Shown: positions 24,276 to 46,257 of the stretch, in pieces
How positions within the stretch are numbered: the first letter of the stretch is position 1
Layout of the letters: each line of letters starts with the position of its first letter
DNA from: Nakamurella flava
GTDB taxonomy: Bacteria; Actinomycetota; Actinomycetes; Mycobacteriales; Nakamurellaceae
DNA length: 64,000 nucleotides
Reading direction: 5' to 3'
Assembly: GCF_005298075.1 (NCBI RefSeq)
Contig: NZ_SZZH01000008.1
Location: 1 to 64,000 of the forward strand
Notes under the pieces: model-generated
Database searches by the model: none
What the model saw: only the letters and a program-made list of their open reading frames with translations
What the model was told of the DNA's origin: nothing
Position numbers and translations under genes: made by a program

Positions 24276-24653
24276 CTACTGGTTGGGCTCGTCGAAACGC
24301 CGACGGAAGCGTTCTTCCATCCGGTTGCCGAGCGAGGAGTTGGGGCGCGGGGCGCGTTCGGCGTTCCGCGCGGCGCGGGCGCCGGGTTGACCGAAGACGA
24401 ACAGTCCCACCGCGGTCACCATCGTCAGGAAACCGATCACGCTGACCACTACGCCCAGGGCGAGCAGACTTTGCGTGGCGATCACACCGACGACGAGTGC
24501 GACAAGACCGGCAACGAACAGTCCACCTGCGACGATCGGGCGACGACGACGGATGCGACTGACGTTGACACTGGTCGCAAACTTCGGGTCGTCCTCATAC
24601 AAGGCGCGCTCGATCTCGTCGAGCATCCGCTGTTCGTGCTCGGAGAGCGGCAT
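24276..24653 (-). CDS. DUF3040 membrane protein
   Basis: A 125-residue protein starting MPLSEHEQRMLDEIERALYEDDPKFA, the standard DUF3040 N-terminus, followed by two transmembrane segments (about residues 43-90) and a basic tail. The ATG at 24653 is chosen for this family start and a GGAGGAGGGG Shine-Dalgarno just upstream; a longer frame is not conserved. DUF3040 genes are actinobacterial and often lie near the dcw cluster, but no function is known. Confidence 0.92.
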   Translation of the reverse strand: MPLSEHEQRMLDEIERALYEDDPKFATSVNVSRIRRRRPIVAGGLFVAGLVALVVGVIATQSLLALGVVVSVIGFLTMVTAVGLFVFGQPGARAARNAERAPRPNSSLGNRMEERFRRRFDEPNQ

Positions 24654-24691
24654 GGTCCCCTCCTCCGGCACCTCACCCCATGGCGGGGTCC

Positions 24692-24872: not shown

Positions 24873-25679
24873 TCAGGCTGGGACTTCGCTGTGGCGACGG
24901 GCCACCAGATGCATGTCGGGGGCGATGTCCCGCAGCACGGGCGAGGCCGCGACGGCCGCCACCAATGCCGGTTGCGCGGCCTCGTCGGCCGCCGACAGCT
25001 GACGGGCGGAACCCACGGTCAACCCGGCGACCCCACCCACCCCGGAGAACGACTCGACCGCCAGACCGGCCGTCTCCAGCAGCCCGTAGAGCTGTCCGGG
25101 TTCGAAGCGACGCAGGAGCGGGTCGGTCGGCCCGAACCGACCCTCCGGGTCGTGGATGAGGGCCAGGGCCGCGGCCGAGCGACCGGCGAGGATGAGGCGG
25201 ACCACCATGCCCCAGCGGGACGGAGCCAGCAGCGACAGCCGGCCACCGGGCCGCAGGGCGGCGGCCACCGCGGCCAGCACGGCCGCCGGGTCGTCCACCG
25301 ACTCGAGCAGGTGGTGGCAGATCACCAGGTCGACGGAACCGGCCGGGACCACTGCCGTCGGCTGTTCGGCGTCGGCCTGGACAGCGGTCACCCGGTCGGC
25401 GACGCCGGCGTCCACCGCCCGGCGGCGCAGGATGGCCAGGGCGTCGACGGACGTGTCGGCCACGGTCACCTGGCAGCCGAGGGCGGCCAGGGGGACCGCA
25501 CGCGTCCCGCTGCCACCTCCGAGGTCGAGCACGCGGGGACTCTCACCCGGAGGACCGATCGTGGCGACCAGCTCGGCCAGCACGGCATCGACCGGATCGG
25601 TCGGCTCGCCCGGCCCGCCCGGAGCCGCTGGCCGATCGTTCCTCCGGTTCGACTCGATCACCCGTTGCCGCTCGTCCAC
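24873..25679 (-). CDS. Class I SAM-dependent methyltransferase
   Basis: A 268-residue protein with motif I VLDLGGGSGTRAVPLA, an acidic motif II (VADTSVDAL), the motif around ICHHLLESVDD and a post-motif RPGGRLSLLAPSRWG. The C-terminal part resembles the SmtA/CmoM-like group, but the substrate cannot be read from sequence. The GTG at 25679 follows a GGAGGAG Shine-Dalgarno sequence. It is divergent from the ParA-like gene and points toward DUF3040. Confidence 0.85.
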   Translation of the reverse strand: MDERQRVIESNRRNDRPAAPGGPGEPTDPVDAVLAELVATIGPPGESPRVLDLGGGSGTRAVPLAALGCQVTVADTSVDALAILRRRAVDAGVADRVTAVQADAEQPTAVVPAGSVDLVICHHLLESVDDPAAVLAAVAAALRPGGRLSLLAPSRWGMVVRLILAGRSAAALALIHDPEGRFGPTDPLLRRFEPGQLYGLLETAGLAVESFSGVGGVAGLTVGSARQLSAADEAAQPALVAAVAASPVLRDIAPDMHLVARRHSEVPA

Positions 25680-25919: not shown

Positions 25920-26825
25920 ATGCTGGTGGCGAGTGTTCTGAGCCTCAAGGGTGGGGTCGGCAAGACGACGGTGACCCTCGGTCTGGCGTCGGCGGCGGTG
26001 GCCCGGGGTATCGACACCGTCCTGGTCGACCTCGATCCGCAGTTGAACGCGACGGCTACGGTCGCGGCGGACTGGGTGGCGGGCCAGTCCGACCGGGCGG
26101 CCGACGGGTCGGCGACCGAGGGGCGGAACGGCAAGAAGGGCAAGGCCGCCCGGGACAAGAAGGCCTCCCCCGCCGCGCTCACGGTGGCCGACGTCCTGGA
26201 TGCGGACGGGGACAAGGCGATCGCCAAGGCCGTCAACCGGGCCGTGCGTGCGGCCGAGTGGGAACCACTGCGGCTCCTGCCGGGCAGCGAGGCCGCCGAG
26301 GCCCACAACCATCCCGATCCGAGCAGTAAGCGACTGCGCCGGCTGGCCACCGCTCTCGCGGCCATCGACCCGGCACCTGCTCTGGTGCTCATCGACTGCC
26401 CGCCGTCCCTCGGACAGCTGACCCGCAGCGCCCTGGTCGCCTCCCAACGGGCCGTCCTGGTGACCGAGCCCTCCCTGTTCGCCGTGACCGGCGTCCAGCG
26501 GGCGCTGGAAGCGGTCCAGACCGAGCGCGCCACCCACCACCCTGCGCTGCAGCCGCTGGGTGTCGTGATCAACCGGTTCCGCCCGCGGGTGAGCGAACAC
26601 GAGTTCCGCCTGGCCGAACTGCGGGACCTTTTCGGCCCGCTGGTCCTCAGCCCGGTGCTGCCCGACCGGTCGGCCGTCCAGCAGGCCCAGGGAGCGGCCG
26701 TGCCCATCCATCAGTGGCCCACCAACGGTGCCCGCGAGATCGCCCAGAGCTTCGACGCCCTGCTCGACCGACTGCTGCGAGCCAACCGCGCCCGCCCCCG
26801 ACCAGCCGCGCTCGCCGGCGCCTGA
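25920..26825 (+). CDS. Orphan ParA/MinD-family ATPase
   Basis: A 301-residue deviant Walker A ATPase. KGGVGKTT is at residues 10-17, the switch I-like VDLDPQLNAT at 36-45, and Walker B LIDCPPSLGQL near residue 160. Such proteins position cargo (plasmid, chromosome, envelope complex) on the nucleoid or membrane. There is no adjacent ParB, so the cargo is unknown. An unusual basic Lys/Arg/Ala/Gly-rich insert (about residues 56-84) lies between the Walker A and the next core segment and could bind DNA. Downstream the gene ends 9 bp from the convergent HEPN gene. Confidence 0.88.
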   Translation: MLVASVLSLKGGVGKTTVTLGLASAAVARGIDTVLVDLDPQLNATATVAADWVAGQSDRAADGSATEGRNGKKGKAARDKKASPAALTVADVLDADGDKAIAKAVNRAVRAAEWEPLRLLPGSEAAEAHNHPDPSSKRLRRLATALAAIDPAPALVLIDCPPSLGQLTRSALVASQRAVLVTEPSLFAVTGVQRALEAVQTERATHHPALQPLGVVINRFRPRVSEHEFRLAELRDLFGPLVLSPVLPDRSAVQQAQGAAVPIHQWPTNGAREIAQSFDALLDRLLRANRARPRPAALAGA

Positions 26826-26834
26826 CCGACCGCA

Positions 26835-27428
26835 TCAGCCGGCGTCGAGGCCCTCGGCGTCCTGGACCAAGGTGGTCTCGACCAGATCGAGGAACGCTGC
26901 GGCCTGACGCACGATGTCGTCGGCCTCCCGGGGCGTGATGAGGCGGCTGATCCCCGCCTGCGCCGCTTGCCGTTTGGCCGAGCCGGCCGCGAAATAGGCC
27001 GCCCACTCCCCGAACTCAGGGGCGACAGCCGGCAGCAGCTGCCACACACTGCCCCGCCGACCCCGGGTCGGCCGGGCGCGGGCGGCGATGAGCGCGGCGG
27101 CGGCCCGCAGCGCCGACAGGTGAGCGGCGGCGTACCGATCGGCCACGTCTGTCGCACGGACGGCGGAACCCAACCCGCGACCGGCGTCGGCCAGCAGATC
27201 ACGGACGGCCGGGGACAACGGAGCCGACAGACCGGGCAGGCCGACCGGGCTCGGCGTGACCCGACGGGGCCGTGCCCGCCCGCCCGCACGACCGGCGCCG
27301 GCTCCGGGACGACCGCGGCCACGCCCGGACGGCGAGCCGTCCCGGACGCCCCGTCCGCACCCGACCGGGCCGTCGATCCGCTCACCGGCCACCACCAGGC
27401 CGTGGTCGTCGATCATTGCAATGGTCAC
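26835..27428 (-). CDS. SAV_6107-family HEPN-like protein, apparently SOS-controlled
   Basis: A 197-residue protein whose C-terminal 130 residues form a mostly helical HEPN-like domain; the segment VWQLLPAVAPEFGEWAAYFAAGSAKR matches the actinobacterial SAV_6107 family as I remember it. The middle third is Gly/Arg/Pro-rich. The start is the GTG at 27428, preceded by GGAGAGGGGAG. HEPN domains are often RNases or nucleotide-binding toxin components, but the RNase motif (R-x4-6-H) is not clear here, so activity is uncertain. A good promoter with an overlapping perfect LexA box lies 75-118 bp upstream. Confidence 0.75.
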   Translation of the reverse strand: MTIAMIDDHGLVVAGERIDGPVGCGRGVRDGSPSGRGRGRPGAGAGRAGGRARPRRVTPSPVGLPGLSAPLSPAVRDLLADAGRGLGSAVRATDVADRYAAAHLSALRAAAALIAARARPTRGRRGSVWQLLPAVAPEFGEWAAYFAAGSAKRQAAQAGISRLITPREADDIVRQAAAFLDLVETTLVQDAEGLDAG

Positions 27429-27502
27429 CGCCGACTCCCCTCTCCGGTCCCGTCCGGTCGACGCGGCGCCTCCGGACCCGGCGTTCGAGCGATCACGCGG
27501 TC

Positions 27503-27518
27503 TCGAACGCTGGTTCGA
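27503..27518. promoter_or_regulatory. Perfect LexA (SOS) box
   Basis: TCGAACGCTGGTTCGA matches the actinobacterial LexA consensus TCGAAC-N4-GTTCGA at all 12 fixed positions. It overlaps the last -10 base and the expected transcription start of the promoter for the HEPN-like gene. Confidence 0.85.
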
Positions 27519-27546
27519 GCGTACGCCCGTTCGACATGGTCCACAA
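27518..27546 (-). promoter_or_regulatory. Sigma-70-type promoter of the HEPN-like gene
   Basis: On the minus strand TTGTGG (27546-27541) is separated by exactly 17 bp from TACGCT (27523-27518). Transcription would begin near 27511, inside the LexA box, leaving an 83-nt leader before the GTG at 27428. Confidence 0.65.
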
Positions 27547-27650
27547 GGGTGCACTGTTCGACGGTGTTCGAATCCCGTCCGTCGCTCGCGGACCAGCGGA
27601 TCAGACGACCCCCGACCGCGACCGGCGGTCCTTCGGCCGGGCGTGATCTG

Positions 27651-28241
27651 ATGGTCGCCATGGCACCCACCGCCGGTCCCGACCCCGCCCGGTCGATCGC
27701 CACCCTCGGACCGGACGGATTCCGCCGGGACATCCATTCCCTGGTCGCGATCTACCTCGCCGCCATGGACTACCCCCGGGAGATCGCCCCCCAACGCACC
27801 GCCCTGTGGGTGGAACACAGCCGCCGGGTGGGCTTCGACGCGCGGGTGGCGCGGGACGCGGACGGCGATCCCATCGGGCTGGCCTACGGCTACCGGGGCG
27901 CGCCGGGACAGTGGTGGTTCTCCGAGATCGCCCGCGGCCTGGGCTCGACGACGGCGCCCGTGCTGCACGACTTCTTCGAGCTCACCGAGCTGCACATCCG
28001 CCCCGACCACCAGGGCCACGGGCTCGGCGAATCACTGCTGCGGTCGCTGGCCGCTCCCCGCCCCGAACGCCGGATGCTGCTGTCGACACCCGAGGGTGAG
28101 AACCGCGCCTGGCGCCTCTACCGCCGCCTGGGTTTCACCGACGTCCTGCGGCACTACCGGTTCACCGGCGACGCCCGGCCGTTCGGCATCCTGGGCCGCG
28201 AACTGCCGTTGGCCGTGGCCGATGGGGCCGCTGGGCACTGA
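27651..28241 (+). CDS. GNAT-family N-acetyltransferase
   Basis: A 196-residue acyl-CoA-dependent acetyltransferase. The acetyl-CoA loop appears in LTELHIRPDHQGHGLGESLLRSL (R/Q-x-x-G-x-G/A type), followed by ENRAWRLYRRLGF, the typical C-terminal GNAT helix. The ATG at 27651 or that at 27660 could be the start; neither has a strong Shine-Dalgarno sequence. It is divergent from the HEPN-like gene and shares the region with the LexA box. GNAT and HEPN-like genes side by side near dcw recur in Actinobacteria as I recall, but the substrate is unknown. Confidence 0.85.
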   Translation: MVAMAPTAGPDPARSIATLGPDGFRRDIHSLVAIYLAAMDYPREIAPQRTALWVEHSRRVGFDARVARDADGDPIGLAYGYRGAPGQWWFSEIARGLGSTTAPVLHDFFELTELHIRPDHQGHGLGESLLRSLAAPRPERRMLLSTPEGENRAWRLYRRLGFTDVLRHYRFTGDARPFGILGRELPLAVADGAAGH

Positions 28242-44433: not shown

Positions 44434-45123
44434 TCAGCCGACCGTCACAGAGGGCGAACCCGGGGACGTCGCGGCCTCCTGAACAGGTGACGAGCTCGGC
44501 ACCTGGATGACGAGCCCGACCGGGAGGACACCGTCCGGCAGATCGTTGACGACGACGATCTCCTCCACCACGGCGCGCGGGTCGCGCTCCGGCGAGTACT
44601 CCTGCGCAAGTGCCCACAGGGTGTCGCCGGGCTGGACGATGACCTGCACCAGCTCGGTGGGCGGGGCCGGCGTGAGGGCGGCATGGACCCCGAGCCCGAG
44701 CAGGGCGACGACGGTCAGAGTCACGCTCAACCGGGCCCACCTCTCCCATGGGCGCTGGAGGGATTCGCCGCGCGGGCAGTCCACCGGCGGCGCCAGGAGC
44801 CGGCGGCCGGAGCCGGTGAGGTGACCGGATCGCGGACGTCGACGGTCGCCGAGCCGCCGCCGACGGATCCGCCCGGGCGCACCCGGCCCGCCGACCCGCG
44901 CCGCCGCGCCCGCGTTCGAGCGGCCGTTCGACACCTCGCCGATCGGCGCCAGGGCGCACTCCGGGCGCCGTCGCGCGGGCACCACCACGGCCGCGGGCAC
45001 CTCCTCCCCGGATCGCCGGCCGTCACGTCGACCGGCGGTGACCGGCCGACAGCGCACCGTCGACAAGGGCCCCGTCAAGGACGGGACGAACGTGCCGGTC
45101 CGCACCGAAACCTGTGTTCCCAT
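44434..45123 (-). CDS. LysM membrane protein divergent from lexA (SOS division-inhibitor candidate)
   Basis: A 229-residue protein with a long basic N-terminal tail, one transmembrane helix (about residues 131-149) and an extracytoplasmic LysM domain (about 158-208: VIVQPGDTLWALAQEYSPERD through VGLVIQVPS). LysM binds peptidoglycan. The position, divergent from lexA and upstream of nrdR, matches mycobacterial Rv2719c (ChiZ) and the DivS/YneA class, which block division during the SOS response. No hydrolase domain is visible. The ATG at 45123 gives a tail of 130 residues that is poorly conserved, so the start is uncertain. Confidence 0.82.
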   Translation of the reverse strand: MGTQVSVRTGTFVPSLTGPLSTVRCRPVTAGRRDGRRSGEEVPAAVVVPARRRPECALAPIGEVSNGRSNAGAAARVGGPGAPGRIRRRRLGDRRRPRSGHLTGSGRRLLAPPVDCPRGESLQRPWERWARLSVTLTVVALLGLGVHAALTPAPPTELVQVIVQPGDTLWALAQEYSPERDPRAVVEEIVVVNDLPDGVLPVGLVIQVPSSSPVQEAATSPGSPSVTVG

Positions 45124-45223: not shown

Positions 45224-45239
45224 TCGAACGGTCGTTCTA
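45224..45239. promoter_or_regulatory. LexA box A (LysM gene side)
   Basis: TCGAACGGTCGTTCTA matches 11 of 12 fixed positions of TCGAAC-N4-GTTCGA. It lies 101 bp upstream of the LysM protein start codon and probably controls that gene. Confidence 0.8.
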
Positions 45240-45303
45240 ACCGACCGCACGTCGAGTTCTACACGACGGGTCCGACAGTGGGTAGATGTGACCGGCGTGT
45301 CGG

Positions 45304-45319
45304 TCGAACGCGTGTTTGA
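45304..45319. promoter_or_regulatory. LexA box B (lexA side)
   Basis: TCGAACGCGTGTTTGA matches 11 of 12 fixed consensus positions. It overlaps the -35 hexamer of the lexA promoter, giving direct autorepression. Confidence 0.82.
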
Positions 45320-45507: not shown

Positions 45508-46257
45508 GTGGCAACCAAGGACGCCCGGGGCCCGGGAGCGGGATCCCGGAAGCAGTCGGCCGACGTCGACGTGGACGGCGAGGGCGAAGTCCTCACGTTC
45601 CCCGACGCCGAGACCGACCCCGACGGCGGCGGCCGCGACTGGGTCATGACCATGCGTCAGCACAAGATCCTGCAGGTCATCCGCGATTCTGTGGAGCGCC
45701 GTGGCTATCCGCCGAGCGTGCGGGAGATCGGACAAGCCGCCGGGCTGAAGTCGCCGTCCTCGGTCGCCCACCAGTTGAAGGTGCTGGAGAAGCGGGGCTT
45801 GATCCGCCGCGACCCCAACCGCCCGCGCGCCGTGGATATCCGACCCCGGGAGGAAGTCCCCGAGGAGACCAGCGAGCAGCCGGCGCCCGTGTACGTGCCG
45901 GTGGTCGGACGGATCGCCGCCGGCGGCCCCATCCTGGCCGAGCAGGCCGTGGAGGAGATCTTCCCGCTCCCCCGCGAGGTGGTCGGTGAGGGCACGCTGT
46001 TCCTGTTGCGGGTGGTCGGCGACTCGATGATCGACGCGGCCATCACCGACGGCGACTGGGTCGTCGTGCGGCAGCAGCCGATGGCCGACAGCGGCGAGAT
46101 CATCGCCGCCATGATCGACGGGGAGGCGACCGTCAAGACGTTCAAACGGTCGGACAACCGCGTGTGGCTGATGCCGCAGAACCCGGCCTACCAGCCCATC
46201 CCGGCCGAGGACGCCGTCATCCTGGGGCGGGTCGTCTCCGTCATCCGCAAGGTCTGA
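45508..46257 (+). CDS. lexA: SOS repressor LexA
   Basis: A 249-residue S24 repressor/protease. The winged-helix DNA-binding domain (about residues 47-112) has [20 protein letters not shown] as helix-turn-helix. The autocleavage site is A138-G139, and the Ser-Lys dyad is S173 (GDSM) and K210 (ATVKTF). The GTG at 45508 follows AGGGAGGT. A 45-residue acidic N-terminal extension precedes the DNA-binding domain, as in several actinobacteria. RecA, the coprotease, is at the right edge of the window. Confidence 0.96.

Follow-up and report, generated by a model that had tools for sequence, protein, structure and literature searches.

The HEPN gene and its promoter region

The window, a stretch of 64,000 nt of the Nakamurella flava genome that was analysed as a whole, contains a gene for a HEPN-domain protein on its minus strand with a LexA-type box upstream, and also the lexA gene itself. 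The relevant features are given below by coordinates, strand and description.

24276..24656, minus strand: DUF3040 protein, end of a conserved gene order (Pfam)
24873..25679, minus strand: SAM-dependent methyltransferase that belongs to the ancestral gene order (Pfam)
25920..26825, plus strand: ParA-like ATPase, on the opposite strand between the HEPN and methyltransferase genes (reading frame, P-loop recognized by eye)
26835..27428, minus strand: HEPN_SAV_6107 (PF18726) protein of 197 aa, start GTG 27428 (Pfam, E 4e-33)
27503..27518, no strand: LexA-type box TCGAACGCTGGTTCGA with perfect palindromic half-sites (pattern match; kept upstream of homologues)
27518..27523, minus strand: candidate -10 hexamer TACGCT, its last base common to the box (read from the letters)
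27519..27534, no strand: second LexA-like site with two mismatches, abutting the main box (pattern match)
27541..27546, minus strand: candidate -35 hexamer TTGTGG, a weak consensus match 17 bases ahead of TACGCT (read from the letters)
27660..28241, plus strand: GNAT acetyltransferase, divergent from HEPN and often found beside it in relatives (Pfam)
45224..45319, no strand: pair of LexA boxes ahead of lexA (45224-45239 and 45304-45319), each with one mismatch
45508..46257, plus strand: lexA (Pfam)

The match of the HEPN protein to PF18726 reached 114.3 bits against a curated cut-off of 27.2, confirming its assignment to the SAV_6107 family in an earlier note on this DNA. Several relatives begin with MT- at the place of the GTG codon at 27428. 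Given this start, the box is located 74 nt upstream of the HEPN gene, and the ATG of the divergent GNAT gene (27660) lies 141 nt from the box on the opposite side.

All 12 specified bases are matched by the box, as the earlier note had claimed, and it was the single perfect match to TCGAACNNNNGTTCGA in the 4.84 Mb genome. One-mismatch matches were found at 36 other places, compared to 7 matches of a reversed control pattern in the same genome. The claim that this box is better than the two beside lexA was also correct, as each of those has one mismatch. Divergent from lexA, a LysM protein is encoded at 44434-45123 on the minus strand, and its ORF contains a further one-mismatch LexA-like site (44916-44931). 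In the intergenic region of the HEPN gene (27483-27571), lone GTTCGA half-sites are present besides the box at 27483, 27529, 27556 and 27566.

Regarding the promoter, the TTGTGG-N17-TACGCT element proposed earlier stood in part: both hexamers and the 17-base gap are there as letters, but a strict sigma-70 and terminator scan of positions 26600-28000 detected neither a promoter nor a terminator. Among the 16 upstream regions of the genus that were compared, most show a TAnnnT ending on the first T of the box. As this overlap recurs, a -10 element adjoining the LexA-type operator is likely, which also agrees with the earlier proposal that the operator covers the expected start site of this promoter.

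Conservation of the box among relatives

A homologue search with an alignment as query gave at least 535 relatives among the 590 stretches listed, 80 of which were kept, and the homologue scan with the window protein as sole query found no relative. At the genome level, PF18726 had one match per genome in 17 of 17 members of the family of the window and was present in 120 of 150 genomes of the order, and the gene was missing in all seven presumed Mycobacterium genomes (g7).

The box was scored when it had at most one mismatch, and for the first 47 loci it was searched in up to about 1.5 kb ahead of the domain. In the genus of the window it was detected in 16 of 17 genomes, the remaining HEPN match (L020) being located at a contig end. 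The absence of the box upstream of homologues in close relatives, which the earlier note had named as a refutation, was thus not observed. Within the order, 45 of 47 loci had the box, with L020 and L032 (668 nt of upstream sequence) as the exceptions, and in total 36 perfect and 11 one-mismatch boxes were present in 67.4 kb of upstream sequence, compared to none in 70.5 kb downstream. Among the named loci, 71 of 80 had the box, as did 34 of 36 picked at about one per lineage, a selection in which Dactylosporangium appears twice and from which loci with short upstream sequence and the box-less L084, L095 and L115 were left out.

In the whole main set, a box with at most one mismatch was found upstream in 123 of 146 homologous loci. 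The 23 loci without it are L020, L032, L059, L061, L063, L076, L083, L084, L095, L102, L115, L162-L170, L173, L174 and L175, six of which have less than 700 nt of upstream sequence; L178 and L182-L190, with short or weak matches, were excluded from the 146. A second set, family f7, with positions relative to an assumed domain start, had the box in 24 of 28 loci, and of 20 wider loci 11 had it. Among Corynebacterium-like loci, a box with at most one mismatch was detected in three of seven, with two-mismatch sites nearby in the other four.

The 146 loci are not independent, since at least two genomes apparently occur twice (L022/L071 and L045/L064) and Micromonosporaceae are over-represented, although the conservation of the box does not hang on full independence. 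Over the 146 loci, the half-sites TCGAAC and GTTCGA were found 74 times at a spacing of 4, compared to a single occurrence for all remaining spacings between 0 and 11, and five Markov resamplings gave no perfect box and one or two one-mismatch boxes each. A lone perfect box in a TCGA-rich genome of 72% GC would be unconvincing by itself, and the 36 one-mismatch places in the genome fit the idea of a palindrome produced by chance. Nevertheless, the conserved upstream position and the fixed N4 spacing in effect refute that idea, whose probability we consider negligible; on sequence grounds, conservation settles the matter. By its match to TCGAAC-N4-GTTCGA at the promoter and its conservation in relatives, the box thus qualifies as a predicted operator of the LexA regulon. 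SOS regulation of the HEPN gene is near certain, with LexA predicted to bind here and the gene predicted to be induced in this organism.

The box does not accompany the gene everywhere. In a phylum-wide sample it was detected in 7 of 19 loci, being absent in two f7 loci and in ten Streptomyces-type loci; these ten and Kitasatospora hold the gene without the box. Therefore, the PF18726 family is not always under SOS control. In line with this, the word HEPN does not appear in what was available to us of the main text of a study of LexA in S. venezuelae (PMC9380542).

A PafBC-type motif beside the box

The consensus of the RecA-independent (PafBC) promoters, or RecA-NDp motif, is given as tTGTCRgtg-8 nt-TannnT (PMC5656591, consulted in part), and recA and some other genes are placed under both pathways in the portion of PMC8223512 that we used. 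When its core, TGTCRG-N10-TAnnnT as in the published consensus, was searched with spacings 5-16 as a control, 46 of the 146 loci gave a total of 47 upstream occurrences in the direction of the HEPN gene. None was found at spacings 5-9 and 11-16, one was antisense and three were downstream. Of the 123 loci with a box, 40 had the motif adjacent to it, including 9 of the 16 in the genus of the window. There, the gap from the PafBC -10 element to the following box is -1 to 5 nt, and in the other families of the main set it is 8-10 nt. The f7 set had the motif in 27 of 28 loci, among them at least three whose LexA box has two mismatches.

These promoters resemble the recA-type dual PafBC/LexA promoters of mycobacteria, in which a RecA-NDp motif occurs together with an SOS box (PMC5656591 and PMC8223512, from the parts seen). 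The HEPN relatives differ in joining both elements in one compact promoter, and the window in having the LexA part only, as no PafBC (RecA-NDp) motif was detected upstream of its HEPN gene. The window genome and G009, the sole members of the genus that lack DinB at the HEPN locus, both have an abutting second LexA-like site and no PafBC motif; within the genus, such a site at exactly 16 bp is common to these two only (L015 in G009). The double site and the missing motif are possibly a shared regulatory change in one sub-lineage.

The orientation of these elements bears on whether the box could serve the divergent GNAT gene, or both genes, with the HEPN gene as a by-stander. A divergent GNAT gene is indeed common, as it was detected in 16 of 17 genus loci, 38 of 80 named loci and 13 of 20 other loci. 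Nevertheless, where GNAT is several genes off, as in Micromonosporaceae, the box remains ahead of HEPN or DUF6504-HEPN, the PafBC motif is directed to HEPN (47 sense vs. 1 antisense) and TAnnnT adjoins the box on the HEPN strand, all of which makes a by-stander position of the HEPN gene very improbable.

Gene order in the genus of the window

The gene order in the genus is GNAT (divergent), box, HEPN, [ParA-like, opposite strand], [methyltransferase], DinB and DUF3040. DinB was found at the locus in 15 of 17 members, and in one of them (L207) its match starts about 100 bp past the HEPN match; the two that lack it are the window genome and G009. The ParA-like gene was present in 13 of 17 genus loci and in none of L204-L207, as if it had been inserted into an older operon.

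Membership in an operon with an error-prone polymerase, found in many relatives, was not observed for the HEPN gene of the window. ImuB and DnaE2 are kept elsewhere in this genome, along with a frame that by reading is ImuA'-like. The LexA-like sites found in that region have two mismatches; one of them, TCGAACGCGTGTACGG, is located near its start (L260:3257-3272; G000:C1:439756).

Translesion-synthesis genes beside HEPN in other families

In relatives of other families, HEPN is accompanied by different polymerase genes. The named Micromonosporaceae loci have the order HEPN-ImuA'-ImuB-DnaE2, with HEPN at the head, whereas those of Geodermatophilaceae, Frankiales-type genomes and Kineosporia have DUF6504-HEPN-DnaE, at times followed by a methyltransferase. 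These products were assigned with family models for ImuA' (NF058630, E 9.4e-50), IMS for ImuB, error-prone DnaE2 (above cut-off) and DUF6504. A more complete order, box-DUF6504-HEPN-DnaE-methyltransferase-DinB, was found in L248 and L249; L250 has this order except for DinB, and L251 except for the methyltransferase. Of the named loci, 76 have 3.5 kb or more of downstream sequence, and a polymerase follows HEPN on the same strand in 64 of them, in 15 of 17 genus loci and in 5 of 20 other loci; there was none beside HEPN in the window, in G009 or in the remaining 15 other loci, which include all seven Corynebacterium-like ones.

DUF6504 was found upstream of HEPN in 20 of 80 named and 4 of 20 other loci and is absent from the genus of the window (0 of 17, at the locus and in the genomes). 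By genome, it was present in 34 of 150 of the order and lay directly upstream of HEPN on the same strand in all 31 that hold both (hand count); G077, G104 and G113 hold DUF6504 without a HEPN match, and G136 has a second copy elsewhere. By context, DUF6504 appears ImuB-C-like, a proposal based on mutasome variants with such a protein (PMC6511836) and on gene order in Deinococcus, where plasmid searches gave lexA-hypothetical-DUF6504-dnaE and little else. Homology of DUF6504 to the tail of actinobacterial ImuB found no support, as a profile comparison of 7 vs. 7 sequences gave a probability of 1.8; the Pfam DUF6504 model had no match in the one ImuB of Micromonosporaceae type that was scanned. 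The C-family polymerase behind DUF6504-HEPN (L090:5423-9163 and similar loci) scored below the curated cut-offs of both DnaE1 and error-prone DnaE, and may represent a separate DnaE group.

These arrangements resemble the ImuA'-ImuB-DnaE2 mutasome, in which an error-prone C-family polymerase and its accessories form an operon controlled by LexA and the Micromonosporaceae version of which is headed by HEPN; the window genome differs in that HEPN lies apart from the cassette. They also resemble the mutasome variants with a standalone ImuB-C (PMC6511836, section 17, consulted in part), where a single damage operon combines DnaE2 with a small protein of the beta type and a member of the Y family; here, HEPN is added between DUF6504 and the polymerase, and the homology of DUF6504 to the ImuB tail is unsupported. 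The word HEPN does not occur in the parts of PMC10421592 and PMC6511836 that we consulted, nor is HEPN among the mutasome components named there.

The same neighbourhoods can be read in another way, with HEPN as a co-regulated passenger or as a protein of general function, for instance on RNA or with the methyltransferase, that is useful after damage but outside translesion synthesis. This would fit with the Streptomyces-type loci, where HEPN has stayed close to the methyltransferase and DUF3040 while neither box nor polymerase is present, with f7 and Corynebacterium-like loci, in which HEPN and the box or a trace of it are kept without a polymerase, and also with the loss of the gene in presumed mycobacteria. 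However, different polymerase sets adjoin HEPN in different families, and the damage promoter is kept even where the polymerase is gone. We regard such a passenger or general role as unlikely, though it is the strongest of the competing explanations.

The HEPN protein

The predicted model of the protein has the helical-bundle fold of the HEPN superfamily, and its best structural match was 2hsb, which was also the only hit of a PDB sequence search (E 0.24); Foldseek by itself gave no match at E 0.001. The canonical Rx4-6H motif of HEPN RNase toxins is missing, as the last helix (model residues 102-133) contains no His, and this motif is listed as "No" for the SAV_6107 family in the table of PMC3710099, as far as we consulted that paper. 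Other residues are conserved: helix 2 carries a nearly invariant R34-x4-H39 (39/39 and 38/39), and R110 in the last helix is invariant. No nucleotidyltransferase was found among the scanned neighbours in the window (GNAT, DUF3040, methyltransferase and ion channel), and PADLOC returned one weak match (E 0.0046).

The earlier note had suggested a damage-induced RNase or toxin-like effector. Such a protein would cleave or block RNA and slow growth during the SOS response, perhaps through an alternative active site. Many HEPN RNases are known, the fold and the conserved Arg and His residues of helix 2 and the last helix are compatible with such an activity, and an alternative active site is discussed for the family of 2hsb, the best structural match, in the part of PMC3710099 that we used. 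Against it, the last-helix His is missing, the scanned neighbours include no nucleotidyltransferase, the defence-system match is weak and the recurring partners are polymerases. In addition, PF18726 is a conserved single-copy gene, unlike a mobile toxin; the same features, with its vertical conservation, separate it from the MNT-HEPN (HepT-MntA) toxin-antitoxin systems. This suggestion thus found little support and we consider an RNase effector improbable; the product is probably a HEPN-fold protein that is not a canonical HEPN RNase.

A proposed role in translesion synthesis

The conserved box marks the HEPN gene as a true SOS gene, and the gene contexts suggest that its product is probably a damage-induced accessory of actinobacterial translesion synthesis. 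According to this proposal, LexA bound at 27503-27518 would cover the -10 and start region and keep the HEPN promoter off until RecA-driven cleavage of LexA frees it. In many relatives, a PafBC element on the same promoter would make two damage sensors converge, as known for recA. The HEPN-fold protein may then act as an adaptor or a nucleic-acid-binding accessory, with partners that would depend on the lineage: ImuA'-ImuB-DnaE2, DUF6504 plus a DnaE-type polymerase, or a nearby DinB in the genus of the window. The window genome itself has no DinB beside the HEPN gene, which would have stayed under its operator. Protein partners, mechanism and binding of LexA and PafBC are thus predicted from promoter geometry, neighbourhoods and fold, as is induction.

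The proposal is weakened by Streptomyces-type loci that have no box, by loci in which no polymerase accompanies the gene and by presumed mycobacteria, which lack the gene. As mycobacteria have a working mutasome (PMC10421592, in the part consulted) and the presumed Mycobacterium genomes do not have the gene, HEPN is not needed there.

A bolder version, to which we give somewhat less than an even chance, is that the SAV_6107 HEPN protein may be a new subunit of the actinobacterial mutasome, in which RNA cleavage was turned to aiding error-prone C- and Y-family polymerases at lesions. It would be under joint LexA/PafBC control in much of the order and would have been lost in presumed Mycobacterium, and hence missed in model species.

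DnaE2-type polymerases contribute to resistance mutations in actinobacteria through damage-induced mutagenesis, and work to define the parts of this machinery continues. The HEPN gene, conserved as a single copy and lying in or heading such operons, with damage switches of the recA type, is a specific candidate for one of these parts. If true, the protein would belong to DNA lesion bypass and not to toxin-antitoxin or defence systems, and two poorly understood domains, SAV_6107 HEPN and DUF6504, would gain a working context.

A probable orthologue in Corynebacterium glutamicum

The earlier note knew of no description of this family as part of the SOS regulon. This agrees with the literature searched under the family name, in which no paper on DUF6504 was found and no account that links the SAV_6107 family to SOS or to polymerases, but a probable orthologue, cg2381, is a listed LexA target. 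This gene of C. glutamicum is given as a conserved hypothetical member of the LexA regulon (Jochmann et al. 2009, as cited in PMC5055667), and its induction by ciprofloxacin (M 3.86) equals the value for recA, according to the part of PMC5055667 available to us, in which mraZ is cg2378.

In all seven Corynebacterium-like loci (g288), HEPN is flanked by a divergent GNAT and by DUF3040, and a MraZ motif lies at a distance of 1.3-1.8 kb from the start of the domain; four of the seven also have a MetF match upstream. C. glutamicum has the PF18726 family, as seen in a control row. Because of the HEPN/DUF3040/MraZ order in these loci, the position of mraZ as cg2378 and the presence of the family, cg2381 is probably the PF18726 orthologue.

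It would thus be the same gene as the HEPN gene of the window, LexA-controlled and damage-induced, whereas its source makes no link to HEPN, PafBC or a polymerase in the part consulted (PMC5055667). The proposed role in lesion bypass may explain an unannotated SOS gene of C. glutamicum.
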